From Candidatus Woesearchaeota archaeon (GTDB taxonomy: Archaea; Nanobdellota; Nanobdellia; SCGC-AAA011-G17; PNOQ01), in contig JABJPM010000022.1 in assembly GCA_018663865.1 (NCBI GenBank), forward strand, positions 1 to 33,621: 33,621 nucleotides of DNA. The letters run 5' to 3'. The notes beneath the pieces were generated by a model that saw only the letters and a list, made by a program, of their open reading frames with translations, had not been told where the DNA came from and made no database searches. How positions within the stretch are numbered: position 1 is the stretch's first letter; every line of letters begins with the position of its first letter. Made by a program: the position numbers and the translations under genes. Shown here one piece after another: positions 7,959-23,472 of this stretch.

Positions 7959-8813
7959 CTAATCTTCATCTATTATTGATCTTCCTTTCAATTCTTTCCA
8001 ATCTTGATCGGGTCTAACTTCCAAGTTTGTTTTCCAGGCACCTTCTAAAACATTTGGTTCAATGTGTTTTTCTTTTGAAAAATGAATCATTGCTTGCATG
8101 TCTTTCGGGAAGCAACTTCCCCCAAAACCAAATTTCCCATCTGGTCCAGGAACTTGAATATGTGATTTTCCAACTCTTTCGTCTTTTGTGAACCCTTCAA
8201 TTGCCGTTTCCCAATTCACTTCAGATTCATTGGCAATTAATTTCATTTCATTCATAAATGAAACTTTTGTTGCAAGAAAGCAATTATTCATATATTTTAT
8301 AAATTCTGCAGTTTCATAATTTGTTTGAATTACCGGCAGATCATCTCCGAATCTTTCTTTGAACAATTTTGCAATTTTGTTTGTGTGATCTTTATTTCCT
8401 CCTAAAATTACTCTTGATTGATTTATAAAATCTGAATTTGCATTTTTTTCAGTTAAAAATTCTGGATTAAATACTATATTCAAATTGGGAAATGATTTTT
8501 GTATTTCATTTGTTGTTCCAGGGGTCACAGTGGATCTTATTAAAACAATATTATCTTTTCTTTTATTGATTTTATTTATTTCTTCTAGGGCTGAATAAAT
8601 TATATCTAGGTGGATTGATCCATCTTTATTTGATGGTGTTGGGACTGATAAGAAAATATAATCTGATTCATTAATTGTCTCATTTAAACTATGCGTGGAT
8701 TTTGTCTTGTCTTTATCATAAATTCTAATTTCTGCATTCCAACCAGATTTTTCTGAAAATCCATACTCTACTGCCGACCCAACAAACCCTCTCCCAATTA
8801 TCCCTATTTTCAT
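7959..8813 (-). CDS. UDP-glucose/GDP-mannose dehydrogenase family protein, short form
   Basis: GIIGRGFVGSAV Rossmann motif, FLSVPTP, STVTPGTT, NPEFLTEKNA, FGFGGSCFPKDMQAM (catalytic Cys), NLEVRPDQ; ends at 284 aa without a recognisable C-terminal UDP-binding domain. Confidence 0.88.
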   Translation of the reverse strand: MKIGIIGRGFVGSAVEYGFSEKSGWNAEIRIYDKDKTKSTHSLNETINESDYIFLSVPTPSNKDGSIHLDIIYSALEEINKINKRKDNIVLIRSTVTPGTTNEIQKSFPNLNIVFNPEFLTEKNANSDFINQSRVILGGNKDHTNKIAKLFKERFGDDLPVIQTNYETAEFIKYMNNCFLATKVSFMNEMKLIANESEVNWETAIEGFTKDERVGKSHIQVPGPDGKFGFGGSCFPKDMQAMIHFSKEKHIEPNVLEGAWKTNLEVRPDQDWKELKGRSIIDED

Positions 8814-8850
8814 TTTATAAAATTAGTGTTGAATCGTTTATATATTTTAT

Positions 8851-8868
8851 TAAATTGAATTCAATTTA
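8851..8868. promoter_or_regulatory. 18-bp perfect palindrome TAAATTGAATTCAATTTA between divergent promoters
   Basis: Self-complementary; flanked by TTTATATA (8837-8844, for the minus-strand gene) and TATATAAA (8877-8884, for the plus-strand gene). Confidence 0.55.
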
Positions 8869-8906
8869 CCAAAAAGTATATAAATTTGAGAGCAAGTTTT
8901 TTAATT

Positions 8907-9746
8907 ATGACTTTAGAATCAATCATTAGTCCATTTAGTGCAGTAGATAAGCCAGGCCATATGTTCTTTACAGGAATTATTTATGCTAGTTTGGCAGTTT
9001 TGCTTAGTAATTGGGTTTTCAAAGATTCTGAAAGTTTAATAATGGTTTTTTTGACTGTTTTGGCAGCTGTGCCAATAATGTATACTACCATGAAAATGGA
9101 GGAAAATGTTACAGTCAAATTAAAGGATGAAATCTCTATTTTGAAAAGGCATGCGAAGGTCATTAAATATCTTACTTGCCTATTCTTGGGATTTGTAGTC
9201 GCATATACTTTCTGGTTTGTTGTTTTGCCATGGGAAATAACCGAACCTTTGTTTTCTACACAAATACATACCATTCAAGGGATTAATGGTAAATTAACTG
9301 GAGATGCAATTTCTGGTGCATCAATTAGTCAAGGAAGTGTTTTCTTTAAAATATTTTTGAATAATTTTAAGGTTTTATTGTTTGCATTGTTTTTTTCATT
9401 TTTTTATGGGGCGGGAGCAATATTCATTTTAACTTGGAATGCTTCTGTAATCGCTGCGGCAGCAGGAGGGTTTATTCAAAAAGCAGTTTTGGCTGGAACC
9501 CATATGGCTGGTGCTGTGCCTTTAGCATTTTTGAGGTATGCTATTCATGGTATCCCCGAAATAGTTGCTTATTTTGTCGCAGGGTTGGCAGGAGGCATAA
9601 TTTCTGTAGCAATGATTAATGGTGATTTAGAGGGGGACAAGTATCGTAAGATAGTGTTGGATGTTGTGGATCTTTGTTTAATCGCACTTGTTATTTTGAT
9701 AATCGCGGCGTTGTTAGAAGTGTTTGTTACGCCAGTGTTTTTTTAG
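8907..9746 (+). CDS. stage II sporulation protein M (SpoIIM/DUF95) family membrane protein
   Basis: Multi-TM with FFKIFLNNFKVLLFALFFSFFYGAGAIFILTWNASVIAAAAG and HGIPEIVAYFVAGLAGG. The track start 8886 is TTG; ATG 8907 is 26.5 nt from TATATAAA, so preferred. Confidence 0.85.
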   Translation: MTLESIISPFSAVDKPGHMFFTGIIYASLAVLLSNWVFKDSESLIMVFLTVLAAVPIMYTTMKMEENVTVKLKDEISILKRHAKVIKYLTCLFLGFVVAYTFWFVVLPWEITEPLFSTQIHTIQGINGKLTGDAISGASISQGSVFFKIFLNNFKVLLFALFFSFFYGAGAIFILTWNASVIAAAAGGFIQKAVLAGTHMAGAVPLAFLRYAIHGIPEIVAYFVAGLAGGIISVAMINGDLEGDKYRKIVLDVVDLCLIALVILIIAALLEVFVTPVFF

Positions 9747-9792: not shown

Positions 9793-11277
9793 ATGTCTAG
9801 AGAAAGAAAATTATTATTTGATGCCTCATTGGTTTTTGTAATGGGGCTTTTGGCGGCCATCTTCGGCTATTTAATTAGGGTTATCCTTTCTAGACAACTT
9901 TCCCTTGAAGAGTTTGGTTTATTTTATGCAGTATTCACGTTTGTAAGTTTTTTTATTGTTTTTAGAGATTTTGGACTTGGTCAGGCTTTAGCTAAATTTA
10001 TCCCCCAATTTTTGGTAAAAAAAGAATATGGTAAAATTAAAGCATCTATTAAATTTGCTTTTTTTATAAATTTATTTATGGGCATGATTTTTGCTACATT
10101 TTTCATAATATTTTCTGATTATTTGGCAATAAATTATTTTAAAAATGAATTGGCAAAATCACTATTAATAATATTATCTGCATATTTTGTCCTATATGCA
10201 ATTTATAGGCTTATTATTTTAATTTTTTTAGGTTTTCAAAAAAGTAAAATATATTCTCTAAATTTATTTTTTATAAATTTTTTTGTCTTTATAGGAATTC
10301 TTATTTTCAAAAAATTTGGAGTGTTAAATCCTGCAATTTCCTATTTATTTGCTGGATTAATGGGGATTATTTTTGGTTTCATTTTATTATTTAAATCTTT
10401 TTCATATTTTAAATATGTTGAAAATAATTCATATGAATTAAAACTTAAATTGTTTTACTATGGATTTCCGATTTTGCTTGCTTCCATTGGCGCGACATTC
10501 ATTGGACAAATTGATACCCTATTATTAATCAAATTTAGGACACTTCCGGAGGTCGGAATCTATAATGTTGTTTTGCCAACAGCCATGCTTTTGATAACGT
10601 TTGGAAGTGCACTAGCAATGGCGATGCTACCCTTTGTTTCAGAGTATTGGGAAAAGAAAAAATTTAAAGAATTATCAAATATTCTTTTAGATATTTATAA
10701 AAAATCATTCATTATAATTGCGCCAATTGGGCTAACTTTATTTATTTTTTCTGATCTTATTCTTAAAGTTTTATTTGGCGAATCTTTCATTTCCGGTTCG
10801 ATTGCACTTAAAATATTATGCATTGGTTCCATATTTTTTTCTGTTGCTGTAATTAATAATAATGTTCTCGCTGCGATTGGTAAACCAAAAGAAGTAACAA
10901 AACTTATTTTATTTGCAGCATTACTTAATTTAATTATTAATTTAATTTTGATTCCCCAATATGGGATTATTGGTGCAGCATTGGCAACTAGCGCATCTTA
11001 TTTTGTTGTTTTGATATTATCTACGTATTTAGTCAATCAATCTGTTAAACTAAAAATTCCAATTTTAGATTGGATTAAAATATTTTTTGCTGGAGTGGCA
11101 TTTACATTATTAGTTAATTTATTTAAAAATATTTTAGAAATGAATGTTTTATTAGAAACTACTGTTGTTTTAATCATTGGATTAATTGGTTATTTTTTAA
11201 TTTTAAAAATTATTGGGATTGATGTTTTTGGTTTATTTAGATTAATGCGACCTGATTTTATAAATCACAAGATATAA
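9793..11277 (+). CDS. polysaccharide/oligosaccharide flippase (Wzx-like, MOP superfamily)
   Basis: 494 aa, about 14 TM segments; N-terminal GYLIRVILSRQLSLEEFGLFYAVFTFVSFFIVFRDFGLGQALAKFIPQ is classic polysaccharide biosynthesis protein. Confidence 0.9.
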   Translation: MSRERKLLFDASLVFVMGLLAAIFGYLIRVILSRQLSLEEFGLFYAVFTFVSFFIVFRDFGLGQALAKFIPQFLVKKEYGKIKASIKFAFFINLFMGMIFATFFIIFSDYLAINYFKNELAKSLLIILSAYFVLYAIYRLIILIFLGFQKSKIYSLNLFFINFFVFIGILIFKKFGVLNPAISYLFAGLMGIIFGFILLFKSFSYFKYVENNSYELKLKLFYYGFPILLASIGATFIGQIDTLLLIKFRTLPEVGIYNVVLPTAMLLITFGSALAMAMLPFVSEYWEKKKFKELSNILLDIYKKSFIIIAPIGLTLFIFSDLILKVLFGESFISGSIALKILCIGSIFFSVAVINNNVLAAIGKPKEVTKLILFAALLNLIINLILIPQYGIIGAALATSASYFVVLILSTYLVNQSVKLKIPILDWIKIFFAGVAFTLLVNLFKNILEMNVLLETTVVLIIGLIGYFLILKIIGIDVFGLFRLMRPDFINHKI

Positions 11278-11378: not shown

Positions 11379-12332
11379 ATGAAAATAAAAGAATTCAAAG
11401 GCGGTTCTTTGAGTAGTACTGCCCTGCACGAAGAAGACGGCAAATTATTTGTCAGAAAAGAAATTTCAATAATCAAAAATAGGGAATATGGTTTCCAAAG
11501 ATGGTATTCTCAACTCAAAAGAATTCAAAGATATAATGTCTTATTTCCAGGGTCATATCCTGAAATATTAGATTTTGGGATAAAGGGGGATCGTGCATTT
11601 ATGGATATTGAATATATCGAATCTGCCGACTCCGGAATAGAATTTTTAAAAAAAGTAAAAACATTTGATGAAGTAAAACTTTTTTTTAATGAATTGATAT
11701 CAGTCATGGATAAAATTCACGAAACAAAAATAAAATCCTCTAAAAACCCCATTAAATTATATTTTCAGGAAGAAGTAAAACAAAAAATAATTGATTGTAA
11801 ATCAAACTTATTTTTAAACCATTACAAAAAACAAAAAATTGTTTTTAACAATATCACCATAGATGCCCTTTCAACACAATTAAATGAATATGGGAAAATG
11901 TTCGAATCATTCTATACAAACCCTATTGAAACATTTTCTCATGGAAATTTAACATTAGAAAATTTAGTATACAATCCAGATACAAATAAAATCACGCTTA
12001 TTGATGTTTATGAAGAAAATATCATAGATTCAAAATATGCTGATTATTCCCAGATATTACAATCTTGCAATTCTAATTATGAGCTATACAATGAATCAGA
12101 TAATCCAGATTTAATTTCTATTCCTTTTGGATTGAAAAGTTTTAAAAAATTATTCAATGAATATTTAAACAATCAATTGTCGAAGGAGGAATTAATATTT
12201 ACAAAATTGTTGGAAATTTCACAATTTATTAGAATGTTGCCCTTTAAAGATGAGATTGCTCCAAAAAAAACTATCTTCTTTTATAATTTGGCATCATATC
12301 GCCTACACGAATTGATTGGTGAGTTAAAATGA
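11379..12332 (+). CDS. aminoglycoside phosphotransferase/choline kinase-like protein
   Basis: GKLFVRKEI (ATP Lys-like), HGNLTLENLVYN catalytic-loop position, ITLIDVYEEN metal-binding-like motif. Confidence 0.65.
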   Translation: MKIKEFKGGSLSSTALHEEDGKLFVRKEISIIKNREYGFQRWYSQLKRIQRYNVLFPGSYPEILDFGIKGDRAFMDIEYIESADSGIEFLKKVKTFDEVKLFFNELISVMDKIHETKIKSSKNPIKLYFQEEVKQKIIDCKSNLFLNHYKKQKIVFNNITIDALSTQLNEYGKMFESFYTNPIETFSHGNLTLENLVYNPDTNKITLIDVYEENIIDSKYADYSQILQSCNSNYELYNESDNPDLISIPFGLKSFKKLFNEYLNNQLSKEELIFTKLLEISQFIRMLPFKDEIAPKKTIFFYNLASYRLHELIGELK

Positions 12333-13456
12333 ATGAATGGAATATTAATACTAGCCTTCCGATCGATTATACAATAAAAATTTCTAATGATCTTTTTTCG
12401 GTCAATAATAATGATTTACTTCAAACTGGAGAAAAAAAAGAAAACATGCGTAGATTGATAGTCATCGATAAAAACGTATATGAATTATATTCTAAAAAAA
12501 TTTTAAATTATTTTAATCATTATGATGTTAAATGTTCTATTGTTTTATTGGAGGGTGGCGAACAAAATAAAAATTTAGATGCTTTGATGTATTTGTTGAG
12601 CGAAATTGAAAAATTTGGATTGCTGAGGCGAGGAGAACCAATAATAGCAATTGGAGGGGGAGTTGTTTTGGATATCGTCGGCCAAGCCGCGAGCATGTTT
12701 AGAAGGGGGGTGCCCTACATACGTATTCCAACAACACTACTGGGAATTGTTGATGTGAGTGTTGCTGCAAAAACAGGAATAAATTTTTTAGAACGTAGGA
12801 ATAGGATTGGGTCCTATTATCCTCCGATTGCAGTCTATTTAGATAAAATTTTCATAAAAACTCAAAACTCTCTTGAAATTTCTTCTGGAATGGGAGAAAT
12901 ATTAAAAATGGCAATTGTTAAAGATAATAAATTATTTGAACTTTTGGAAACTTATGGCGAAGAATTATTAGAAACAAAATTCCAACATGAAATATCCGAT
13001 GAAGTAATTGAAAGATCAATAATTGGCATGATTGAAGAATTGGAAATCAATTTATGGGAAAAAAATTTAAAACGTTTGGTCGATTTTGGACATTCGTTTA
13101 GTCCGATTATCGAAATGAGGTCAATTAATACTGAGAATCCTTTAACGCATGGTCAAGCGGTAACTTTGGATGTATTATATTCTTGTTTAATTTCAAAATC
13201 TAGGGGTATGTTATCTTCTGAAGAAGTTAAACGGATATTTGCAACAACTAAAAGGTTAAAGTTACCCCTTTATCATCCTCTTTTTGGCAACTCAATTTTA
13301 TTAAAAGAATCTTTATCAGATACTATGAAACATAGGAATGGAAAACAAAATTTACCCATCCCCGTAAGAATCGGAAAATCAATATTCATTAATGATTTTA
13401 AATATGAAGAGCTTATTCAGATATGCGAACAACTAAAAGAAAAAAATGAAAAATAA
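12329..13456 (+). CDS. sugar phosphate cyclase: sedoheptulose-7-phosphate cyclase / 2-epi-5-epi-valiolone synthase-like (3-dehydroquinate synthase superfamily)
   Basis: GGGVVLDIVGQAASMFRRGVPYIRIPTTLLGIVDVSVAAKTGINF, RNRIGSYYPP, GMGEILKMAIVKDNKLFELLE, VDFGHSFSPIIEM, THGQAVTLD, HRNGKQNLPIPVRIGKSIFINDF. GHSFSPIIEM replaces the DHQS-type GHTFGHAIE. Confidence 0.87.
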   Translation: MNEWNINTSLPIDYTIKISNDLFSVNNNDLLQTGEKKENMRRLIVIDKNVYELYSKKILNYFNHYDVKCSIVLLEGGEQNKNLDALMYLLSEIEKFGLLRRGEPIIAIGGGVVLDIVGQAASMFRRGVPYIRIPTTLLGIVDVSVAAKTGINFLERRNRIGSYYPPIAVYLDKIFIKTQNSLEISSGMGEILKMAIVKDNKLFELLETYGEELLETKFQHEISDEVIERSIIGMIEELEINLWEKNLKRLVDFGHSFSPIIEMRSINTENPLTHGQAVTLDVLYSCLISKSRGMLSSEEVKRIFATTKRLKLPLYHPLFGNSILLKESLSDTMKHRNGKQNLPIPVRIGKSIFINDFKYEELIQICEQLKEKNEK

Positions 13457-14123
13457 AATAATAGTAATCACGGGCAGTAGCAGCGGATTGGGATCAACGT
13501 TAGTGAAAGATTTGTGTGTTAAACATCAAGTAATAGGGTTATCAAGGAATAACAATGAATTTAATGAACAATTAAGTAATTTTAAATATATTAAAACAGA
13601 TATAAGCAATTCTATGGATGTGAAAAATGCATTTGAACAAATAAATTATCAATTTGGAAAAATAGATATTTTAATTAATAATGCGGGAATATTCATCACA
13701 AAATCATTTGACAAATGTGAAGTTAAAGAAATAGATGATATAATTGATACAAATTTAAAGGGGCCCCTATACTGTATTTTAGAAACATTGAAAATAATGA
13801 AAGCTGGTCGCATAATTAATATCAGTTCAGTATCCGGAAATAACGCAATTGCTGATCAAACAATTTATTCTGCTTCGAAGTTTGGTCTGAATGGATTTTC
13901 AGATGCATTGGGCCAGGAAGTCCAAAATAAAAAAATAAATATTACTACCATTTGCCCAGGGGGAATGGATACTCCCCTTTGGAATGAAAAAAATCCCTAT
14001 GTTGGAAATGGAAAAATTTTAAATACTAGTGAGGTTAGTGAATTAATACAATATGTAATAAAATTACCAGATCATATTGTATTAAAAAAAATAACATTAT
14101 TTCCGAAAAATGAATGGCATTAA
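13446..14123 (+). CDS. short-chain dehydrogenase/reductase
   Basis: TGSSSGLG, NNAG, NISSVSG, YSASKFG and CPGGMDT SDR motifs; 11-nt overlap with the cyclase. Confidence 0.9.
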   Translation: MKNKIIVITGSSSGLGSTLVKDLCVKHQVIGLSRNNNEFNEQLSNFKYIKTDISNSMDVKNAFEQINYQFGKIDILINNAGIFITKSFDKCEVKEIDDIIDTNLKGPLYCILETLKIMKAGRIINISSVSGNNAIADQTIYSASKFGLNGFSDALGQEVQNKKINITTICPGGMDTPLWNEKNPYVGNGKILNTSEVSELIQYVIKLPDHIVLKKITLFPKNEWH

Positions 14124-14832
14124 ATTAAATTTGATTCTCACAATGGCTGGCACTTATGCTAGATTTACCAAGGAGGGATATAAAATACCAAAATATTTAC
14201 TCCCATGGGGATCAACAACAATTATTACAGAACTTCTTAATGAGTTTACAAAAACAAATATAATTGATAATATTTTTTTAATTGCTAATAGGGAGGATAT
14301 GGATTATGCTCCCCATCTACAAAAAACATTAAAACATTTTAATATCCCCAAAGAAAATTTGGTCTATATTGATACCACTGCTGGACAAGCCGAAACTGCA
14401 GCAATTGCAATAAAAAAATTTAAAACAAAATTAAAAGACGATCCTTTTCTGATTCATAATATTGATACCTTATTGTATAATCGAGATTTTAATCAAATTA
14501 AAAAAAGTTTAGAAAAAAATGATGGATACATAGATATTTTTGAATCTAGTAATCCGGCATATTGTTATTTATTATCTAATGATGCAAATGAAGTTTATGA
14601 AATTGCTGAAAAAATTTTAATTTCTGATATGGCATCATCTGGGCTATATGGATTTACAAATTCAAAAATATTTTTGGACAATTTTGATAATGAAATTTTT
14701 ATTAGTGAGATATATAAAAAAATAATTAAATCTGGGAAAATTTTATCTGGAATATTGTATGATGAATCCTCCACAGTTGTTTTGGGAACTCCCGTTGAAT
14801 ATGTTAATAAAACAAATTTATTAATTAAATAA
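14110..14832 (+). CDS. sugar/cyclitol-phosphate nucleotidyltransferase-like
   Basis: LILTMAGTYARFTKEGYKIPKYLLPWG (divergent G-x-G-x-R-F...PK signature) and HNIDTLLY; 14-nt overlap with the SDR. Confidence 0.78.
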   Translation: MNGIKLNLILTMAGTYARFTKEGYKIPKYLLPWGSTTIITELLNEFTKTNIIDNIFLIANREDMDYAPHLQKTLKHFNIPKENLVYIDTTAGQAETAAIAIKKFKTKLKDDPFLIHNIDTLLYNRDFNQIKKSLEKNDGYIDIFESSNPAYCYLLSNDANEVYEIAEKILISDMASSGLYGFTNSKIFLDNFDNEIFISEIYKKIIKSGKILSGILYDESSTVVLGTPVEYVNKTNLLIK

Positions 14833-14836
14833 TAAA

Positions 14837-15994
14837 ATGGTAAAAATAGGCATTGCAATAAGTTTATATGATAAATTTGAAGAGCTTTCATTATTAATAG
14901 ACATAATTAGATCCAATTGGAACGGAGAATATGTAATCTCGGTGTGTTGTAATCATCCAGATGGAAAGAAAAAAATACAAAATTTAGATATAGATTGTTA
15001 TTCTCAGGGAGAAGATATAAATTTTTCTAAATCGCTTACCGATTTTCAAAAAAAAATTAATTTAAATGGCCGAGTTTTAGATTCGATTAAAAAATCATGT
15101 TTAGGCGCGATTAATCATGGGGCAGATTATGTTATGCATTTGCATACAGATGCTTGGCCACTTAATGAACAATCTTTGTTGAATTTGGTTGATGATATGA
15201 AAAAATTCAAAAAAGGAATTGGATATCGTGGAATGGGGTTATCAAAATATAGGCCAGATTGTCCGCTGGGCCATGTGGATGATATGTTTCTTTTGTTTAA
15301 TTCTGAATTTGTAAAAAAAATTAATTTTTTCAATTTCAATCCATTATCCATTTTACCTAATCGATTAAGTATTCATGGCGCCATTTCGTCTCTATTGGTT
15401 GCTAAAGCTGGAATAGAGAATCTTTATTTTTATGAAGATCACACAAACCTTCTTTTTTGGGATGGTGAAAAACATAACCCCCTTTTTGAGAGGGCTAAAC
15501 CGACAATGTATGATTTAAAATATAAATTTTTACATGTGCACTCCCAATCTTTCATTAATGATTATTCAAGAAATATCCAGGCAATGTATCTTTTTGAAAA
15601 TGGAATTACAAATGGAAAATATATTTCAATTTTTTTAGATAAATATTTGATTAATAAGGATATATTGTTAGAGGAAATATCAAATTATGAAAATAAATTA
15701 TATCTAAAATTGAGATTTTGGGGATTTCCCATTATTAAATTTGGCAGATTTGGAAGGGATTTCAATAAAATGAAAATTTATTTAAATTCTTCATTCAGAA
15801 TCAAATTAATTTATTGGTTTAGGGTTAATATTATGTCTATGTGGGAAGAAACAATAAAGAAATGGTTTGGATTTGAATTATCCCCAAATTATTCTGTTTG
15901 GCCAGAATCTTTAAATGATCTTTATTTTAAAAATTTAAATCAATCTGATTATCCAGAATTTTTAATTTGGTGGAAAAAAAGTAATTCTGAATGA
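14837..15994 (+). CDS. putative glycosyltransferase-like protein, divergent
   Basis: IGIAISLYDKFEELSLLIDIIRSNW N-terminus and DYVMHLHTDAWPL acidic motif resembling a GT-A D-x-D-like site; 4 nt after the nucleotidyltransferase. Confidence 0.5.
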   Translation: MVKIGIAISLYDKFEELSLLIDIIRSNWNGEYVISVCCNHPDGKKKIQNLDIDCYSQGEDINFSKSLTDFQKKINLNGRVLDSIKKSCLGAINHGADYVMHLHTDAWPLNEQSLLNLVDDMKKFKKGIGYRGMGLSKYRPDCPLGHVDDMFLLFNSEFVKKINFFNFNPLSILPNRLSIHGAISSLLVAKAGIENLYFYEDHTNLLFWDGEKHNPLFERAKPTMYDLKYKFLHVHSQSFINDYSRNIQAMYLFENGITNGKYISIFLDKYLINKDILLEEISNYENKLYLKLRFWGFPIIKFGRFGRDFNKMKIYLNSSFRIKLIYWFRVNIMSMWEETIKKWFGFELSPNYSVWPESLNDLYFKNLNQSDYPEFLIWWKKSNSE

Positions 15995-22545: not shown

Positions 22546-23472
22546 ATGGTAAAACCAAATTTATTTATTGTCGGGGCCCCAAAATCTGGCACTTCAGCAC
22601 TATACCGTTTTTTAAAACAACATCCAGATATTTTTATGCCGAAATACAAGGAACCTCATTTCTTCAGTAAAGATCTCCAGAAAGAAAGTGATATTTTTCA
22701 TGGTTTTTTAAAACATTATCCCTTCAGGAGTGAAGATCAGTATCTTTCTTTATTTTCTGGAGCAAAGGATGAAAAAATAATTGGTGATGCATCCACTCAT
22801 GCATTATTTTCCAATGTTGCAGCTAAAGAGATTTATAATTTTAATCCAGAATCTAAAATTATTATAATGTTGAGGGAGCCAATAGAATATTTATATTCCC
22901 TCCATTCACAACTATATAAACACCTCGATGAAAATGTGGATGATTTTAAAAAGGCATTACAATTAGAAAAATTTAGAAAAAATGGCGAAGGCATCCCAAA
23001 AACTGCAGAATTTCCTTCAAAACTGCATTACTCCGATTGGGCTAAATTTGATGTTCAGTTGAGTAGATATTTAAAAATTTTCAATAAAAATAAAATTAAG
23101 ATTATAATTTTTGATGATTTTAAGTCAGATAATCTAAAAATTTGTAAAGAAATATTTTCTTTTTTAGGTATAGATGATTCTTTTATTCCAGAAATTTCAA
23201 TAGTACATTCAAATAAAATATTAAAACATCGAAAATTTATGGGATTTATAAAAAATCCAGCGGTATTCAAAATTATGAAAATTATTCCTCGAAAATACTA
23301 TTCTGCCATTGGCAGAAAATTTCATGATGCACTATACAAGAAACAAAAAAGAAACCCCTTGAATGATTCTTTTTCCAATGAATTGAAAAAAATATATAAA
23401 CCAATTGTTGAAAATTTATCTGTAATGATAAATAGGGATTTAATATCCTTGTGGAAATATAATGAAATTTAA
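22546..23472 (+). CDS. PAPS-dependent sulfotransferase
   Basis: FIVGAPKSGTSALYRFLKQHPDIFMP 5'-PSB loop, KEPHFFS, KIIIMLREPIEYLYSLH 3'-phosphate-binding region. Confidence 0.88.
   Translation: MVKPNLFIVGAPKSGTSALYRFLKQHPDIFMPKYKEPHFFSKDLQKESDIFHGFLKHYPFRSEDQYLSLFSGAKDEKIIGDASTHALFSNVAAKEIYNFNPESKIIIMLREPIEYLYSLHSQLYKHLDENVDDFKKALQLEKFRKNGEGIPKTAEFPSKLHYSDWAKFDVQLSRYLKIFNKNKIKIIIFDDFKSDNLKICKEIFSFLGIDDSFIPEISIVHSNKILKHRKFMGFIKNPAVFKIMKIIPRKYYSAIGRKFHDALYKKQKRNPLNDSFSNELKKIYKPIVENLSVMINRDLISLWKYNEI

Follow-up and report, generated by a model that had tools for sequence, protein, structure and literature searches.

A predicted 2-epi-5-epi-valiolone synthase-type cyclase in a gene cassette shared by a small archaeon and uncultured T4-like and jumbo phages

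The cyclase gene and its family

The window analysed here is the whole 33,621-nucleotide stretch JABJPM010000022.1, a single contig of a Candidatus Woesearchaeota genome that is 595 kb in size and 93% complete; its gene content and small size suggest a DPANN-type archaeon. It carries a four-gene operon encoding a kinase-like protein, a cyclase, a short-chain dehydrogenase/reductase (SDR) and a nucleotidyltransferase (NTase), in that order; the successive genes overlap by 4, 11 and 14 bases (Table 1). The second gene is the subject of this report. As judged from its sequence, the encoded protein is one of the sugar phosphate cyclases and falls on their sedoheptulose-7-phosphate (S7P) branch, whose members convert a C7 sugar phosphate to a carbocyclic 'pseudo-sugar'; it is not the shikimate enzyme, 3-dehydroquinate synthase (DHQS), that such genes are usually annotated as.

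The open reading frame (ORF) of the cyclase matched Pfam DHQ_synthase (E=6.9e-31) and DHQS_C (E=1.8e-22). In phmmer comparison with solved structures, it scored 288 bits (E=9.5e-85) with ValA (PDB 4P53), 208 bits with desmethyl-4-deoxygadusol synthase (DDGS, PDB 5TPR) and 137 bits with the best DHQS; together, the Pfam and phmmer scores rule out a chance resemblance. A family profile kept the ranking (ValA 398 bits, DDGS 326, DHQS 264), and the NCBIfam aroB model gave 214 bits, under its cut-off of 305 bits. The AlphaFold2 model, for which the alignment held only the window and viral-locus rows, has a pLDDT of 89. Its nearest fold is that of ValA (TM score 0.91; about 39% identity), which like AcbC is a 2-epi-5-epi-valiolone synthase (EEVS); the second nearest is 5TPR. 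The first-pass annotation of this DNA had called the protein EEVS/DDGS-type rather than DHQS-type, citing three motifs. The ORF and all three motifs (DFGHSFSPIIEM, RRGVPYIRIPTTLLGIVDVSVAAKTGINF and HRNGKQNLPIPVRIGKSIFINDF) were found, and the assignment is borne out by the residues described below, which narrow it to EEVS-type.

Active-site residues and phylogeny

Besides the window protein, our alignment comprised 25 non-redundant viral, 4 EEVS-type, 2 DDGS-type, 4 EboD and 8 DHQS sequences. The metal-binding and general catalytic residues (E190, H255, H274, D142, K148, N158 and K193) are invariant in every family aligned, the window protein included. Like AroB (DHQS), the window cyclase thus has the metal- and NAD-site residues of the superfamily; it differs at the four DHQS-only substrate positions, K250, R264, N268 and H275. 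We take these numbers to be those of AnDHQS, the residues themselves being computed. All eight DHQS sequences carry K, R, N and H there; the window cyclase carries M234, K248, D252 and P259. The carboxylate pocket of DHQS, which the first-pass annotation had singled out for checking, is therefore not intact (K250→M, R264→K, N268→D, H275→P). M, D and P at these sites are common to the window protein, 25/25 viral rows and 4/4 EEVS-type rows.

D252 and H335, which we take to be the two published sites distinguishing EEVS from DDGS, are the same in the window cyclase as in ValA (D and H), whereas DDGS carries A and T there. A 14-site EEVS fingerprint and two EEVS/DDGS sites have been described (zebrafish EEVS paper, eLife; PMC4426668). 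With P259, these residues make up the D, P and H of ValA and AcbC at the sites that separate EEVS from DDGS and DHQS, and all three are kept in the window protein and in 25/25 non-redundant viral rows.

The reference set of the tree was small, and the ValA, DDGS and DHQS structure sequences in it came from printed alignments with their ends cut. In this tree, the window cyclase lies inside the S7P-cyclase clade (support 99/97), with DHQS and EboD outside; DDGS is inside the same clade, hence the tree does not split EEVS from DDGS. Approximately unbiased (AU) tests rejected a clade of the window protein with DHQS (p 1e-193), as well as a grouping of the window protein with bacterial EEVS that leaves out the viral rows (p 5e-4). 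The window cyclase forms a clade (98/95) with the cyclases of two viral loci, L055 and L056, and this clade is nested in a viral clade (100/100).

Neighbouring genes and chromosomal context

Table 1. Predicted genes of the operon and its surroundings in the window
Feature	Positions	Strand	Basis
SpoIIM-family membrane protein	8886..9746	+	Pfam; conserved chromosomal anchor
Polysaccharide flippase (Wzx/MATE-like), upstream of operon	9793..11277	+	Pfam Polysacc_synt 1.4e-24
Kinase-like protein, aminoglycoside-phosphotransferase (APH) fold	11379..12332	+	AlphaFold2/Foldseek; Pfam Choline_kinase weak, under cut-off
EEVS-type sugar phosphate cyclase (predicted)	12329..13456	+	ATG start, 375-aa ORF; motifs, profiles, residues, phylogeny, fold
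SDR	13446..14123	+	Pfam adh_short 3e-47
Sugar-1-phosphate-type NTase	14110..14832	+	NCBIfam Arch_glmU 2e-10 (under cut-off); PDB 4evw 2e-16
Uncharacterised 385-aa protein, final gene of same-strand run	14837..15994	+	ORF only

The AlphaFold2 model of the kinase-like protein has a pLDDT of 93, and its nearest solved folds in Foldseek are aminoglycoside phosphotransferases and methylthioribose kinase. The invariant ATP-site Lys27 and the second Asp, Asp209, are kept. However, the protein does not have the catalytic HGD motif of an APH-type kinase: HGN stands there in 66 of 67 aligned rows of the family, archaeal and phage. Either the family has an unusual active site, or it is no conventional kinase. 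NTP-transferase, APH-like and NTase domains also occur together, either fused or side by side, in capsule-type loci of a related archaeon (L047; G154:C7) and of a Citrobacter plasmid (L038); the APH motif of the archaeal locus is HGD.

No methyltransferase, ATP-grasp, epimerase or phosphatase gene was seen among the operon genes. The 385-aa protein had no Pfam or NCBIfam match and no counterpart in the viral loci; that it is a glycosyltransferase would be a guess.

The SpoIIM-family protein is present in 20/21 genomes, its own included, with 71% identity in the same genus; since this gene is a conserved anchor, the contig is chromosomal. The flippase (59% identity in the same genus) adjoins SpoIIM in several relatives, and a block of type III RuBisCO, HAD and ribose-1,5-bisphosphate isomerase genes, followed by SpoIIM and flippase, is mostly kept within the family. 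The genome carries type III RuBisCO, AMP-phosphorylase-like and ribose-1,5-bisphosphate-isomerase-like genes. Past the flippase lie UDP-GlcNAc 2-epimerase, DegT aminotransferase and Polysacc_synt_2 genes in a same-genus genome, and UDP-sugar dehydrogenase and epimerase genes in another relative. The cassette therefore fills a slot for sugar-precursor genes. There is no break in GC content along the contig.

The cyclase gene was found in 0/60 relatives. A survey of the phylum (371 genomes, the window's own included) gave 26 other genomes with a match at E<=1e-30; the 24 of these that were aligned were rejected as the same cyclase type, all being ordinary DHQS with a GHTxGH motif. Genome-wide, the window cyclase is the sole DHQS-family gene, and no second cyclase was found; the remark of the first-pass annotation that the window holds no aro genes is correct among the window ORFs examined.

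Relatives of the cassette in viruses

A profile scan of IMG/VR (uncultured viruses) yielded 72 viral loci, whose cyclases are 44-58% identical to the window protein; the plasmid, PDB and GenBank phage sequences found reach <=42%. The SDR gene is present in all 72 loci, beside the cyclase in each, the kinase-like gene in 69 and the NTase gene in 50. Loci lacking a kinase-like match begin at a contig edge, and the viral NTase homologues are mostly 35-41% identical and adjacent. NTase-kinase-cyclase-SDR is the commonest viral gene order; the window order, kinase-cyclase-SDR-NTase, is also found in L055 (48, 58, 52 and 52% identity, respectively) and in L056. Among 24 viral records checked, the T4 Gp23 major capsid protein was detected in seven (E 1e-144 to 1e-131) and a large terminase above the family cut-off in six. 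L055, the closest viral relative, lies on a contig of 394 kb that also encodes a tail sheath. The closest relatives found for the cassette are thus uncultured T4-like and jumbo myophages.

INPHARED/GenBank phages contained no kinase-like protein, no cyclase of this clade and no cassette member. Plasmid homologues were rejected as kin of the cassette, which is absent there (<=42% identity); where the kinase-like protein matched plasmids, the hits were GAK-system phosphotransferases of 22-24% identity in unrelated context. A single-protein scan of genome contigs gave only an ordinary DHQS (L003), with query peptides that are poorly conserved and with bacterial genomes outside plasmids not properly covered. 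The viral bias of the relatives may partly be a sampling effect, bacterial genomes not having been scanned with the conserved profile.

As phages and archaeon have the same cassette, it has probably been shared by horizontal transfer. We no longer assert outright that a phage was the donor to the archaeon, because a tree with the window protein outside the viral clade was not rejected by the AU test (p 0.058); any direction of transfer between phages and archaeon would be inferred.

In 17 viral loci, a RuBisCO-like protein is encoded directly upstream of kinase-cyclase-SDR (L063 1940-3058, L106 1796-3034, L109 1919-3058, L120 1922-3040 and 13 more). Its KPK and K-x-D-E motifs are intact, but the loop-6 lysine region is lacking; owing to this pattern, an isomerase/enolase-type protein seems likelier than a carboxylase. 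A tRNA-His guanylyltransferase gene (Thg1, 5e-21) lies near the cassette of L055, at 8119-8871.

Comparison with known systems and proposed function

Bacterial antibiotics and the sunscreens of animals and microbes are the main known settings of pseudo-sugar (C7-cyclitol) chemistry. Different from ValA and AcbC, the window cyclase groups with viral proteins in a well-supported clade of its own, occurs in a tiny archaeon, and is tied to a surface-glycan locus rather than to an antibiotic cluster. DDGS is also of the S7P branch (34% identity), but has A and T where the window cyclase has D and H, and the window operon has no O-methyltransferase neighbour. EboD of the ebo cluster is likewise a sugar phosphate cyclase outside DHQS; however, it keeps His at the H275 position and falls outside the S7P clade, and no ebo-like neighbour was seen among the window ORFs scanned.

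The acarbose pathway leads from S7P to GDP-valienol by way of a cyclase, cyclitol kinases and a cyclitol nucleotidyltransferase (PMC9200736). The window operon resembles the activation steps of acarbose and validamycin biosynthesis (AcbU kinase, AcbR/ValB nucleotidyltransferase) in its set of cyclase, kinase-like protein, nucleotidyltransferase and dehydrogenase. It differs in that the kinase-like protein is an APH-fold protein with HGN, in that no epimerase or phosphatase was seen, and in that the NTase is short and GlmU/IspD-like, whereas AcbR and ValB resemble glucose-1-phosphate adenylyltransferases (PMC9200736).

By this analogy, the most likely product of the cassette is a nucleotide-activated C7-cyclitol destined for a surface glycan. 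In the route that we infer, from substrate source and product to order of steps, activated form and glycan role, the NAD- and metal-dependent cyclase would take S7P or a close ketoheptose phosphate, eliminate phosphate and close the ring by aldol addition, giving 2-epi-5-epi-valiolone or an epimer. The partner enzymes, as in acarbose and validamycin biosynthesis, would reduce the ketone, phosphorylate the cyclitol and load it onto a nucleotide; glycosyltransferases and the adjoining flippase would build it into a surface glycan.

The source of the substrate was suggested in the first-pass annotation to be the non-oxidative pentose phosphate pathway, which finds no support here. Profiles of transketolase, transaldolase, 5-enolpyruvylshikimate-3-phosphate (EPSP) synthase and DeoC-type aldolase had no match in the genome, whereas among 14 control genomes they matched in 10 to 14. 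Both other genomes of the genus likewise lack transketolase (3/3 with the present one), as do 4/6 other family members searched; an assembly gap is therefore an unlikely cause of its absence. Only about 22-42% of DPANN genomes are reported to have transketolase and transaldolase (PMC8407392). The archaeon may take S7P from a host cell, or the cyclase clade may use another ketose phosphate.

Weighing the interpretations

Taken together, we consider it probable that the gene encodes an EEVS-type cyclase in a nucleoside diphosphate-cyclitol cassette for a surface glycan, shared with T4-like and jumbo phages. Several points weigh against this. The main weak point is that this genome yielded no source of S7P. 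Owing to the Asn at the catalytic Asp site of APH, phosphorylation by the kinase-like protein is uncertain, and the 385-aa protein, a possible user of the product, is in no recognisable family. The EEVS-type prediction draws on part of the published 14-site fingerprint, which is reportedly that of Kean et al. in 2014, and we know of no member of the window/viral cyclase clade whose EEVS activity has been measured.

The lack of transketolase, transaldolase and DeoC-type aldolase matches would also fit a clade that has shifted to another substrate, e.g. a ketose phosphate not from transketolase, with the RuBisCO-like protein upstream of the cassette in one phage subclade helping to make it. We regard such a shift as unlikely, since the EEVS pocket residues examined are intact, S7P could stem from a host cell or from genes in the ~7% of the genome that is unassembled, and neither the window operon nor most viral loci have the RuBisCO-like gene. 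It is somewhat less likely still that an S7P-type cyclase here serves a free or small molecule (gadusol-, mycosporine- or antibiotic-like) and not a surface glycan. Most characterised EEVS and DDGS enzymes do feed natural products, and rhizobial and Streptomyces plasmid homologues are clustered with ROK kinases, dehydrogenases and transport genes; however, the present operon has a nucleotidyltransferase as partner and neither methyltransferase nor ATP-grasp, and it follows the flippase, amid glycosyltransferases and an AglB-like gene, in the slot where relatives keep sugar genes.

A divergent DHQS of aromatic biosynthesis is very improbable: although Pfam and NCBIfam label the cyclase DHQS-like and DHQS proteins exist in other genomes of the phylum, all four DHQS-only positions are substituted, the AU test rejects the clade with DHQS, the aroB score is under the cut-off, the genome has no EPSP synthase, and the operon partners are not aro genes. 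We give equally little credence to an assembly or binning artefact that mixed phage DNA into an archaeal genome. The viral affinity of the closest relatives found and the absence of the gene from the relatives searched would fit it, but the RuBisCO III/AMP-pathway block and SpoIIM-flippase lie on the same 33.6-kb contig in the order seen in genus and family relatives, and the cassette directly follows the flippase with no GC break.

If the preferred reading, a cyclitol cassette for a surface glycan, is true, its presence in T4-like and jumbo phages and in a DPANN-type archaeon would give C7-cyclitol chemistry a new home, and surface glycans would probably be a new use of it. It would also mean that '3-dehydroquinate synthase' labels in viral gene lists can be wrong. 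Literature searches turned up no EEVS reported from a phage or an archaeon. Prasinoviruses are reported in the literature to carry a 'dehydroquinate synthase'. More tentatively, and with more doubt than conviction, we propose that T4-like and jumbo phages, together with one or more tiny archaea, may have a dedicated cassette for a nucleotide-activated C7 pseudo-sugar that decorates virions or cell-surface glycans, forming a polymer that may resist ordinary glycosidases, and that the archaeon may manage this without a pentose phosphate pathway, drawing on a host-derived or unconventional ketose phosphate.

Other features of the window

Upstream of SpoIIM, an ORF of 284 aa (7959-8813) resembles UDP-glucose/GDP-mannose dehydrogenases; Pfam matches only its N-terminal domain (starting at profile position 61) and its central domain, and the C-terminal UDP-binding domain is unmatched. 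A sulfotransferase-family gene (22546-23472; Pfam Sulfotransfer_1, 1.1e-14) is located amid glycan genes. Near the left contig end, the ORF at 1017-1652 resembles by eye a LAGLIDADG homing-endonuclease-type protein.
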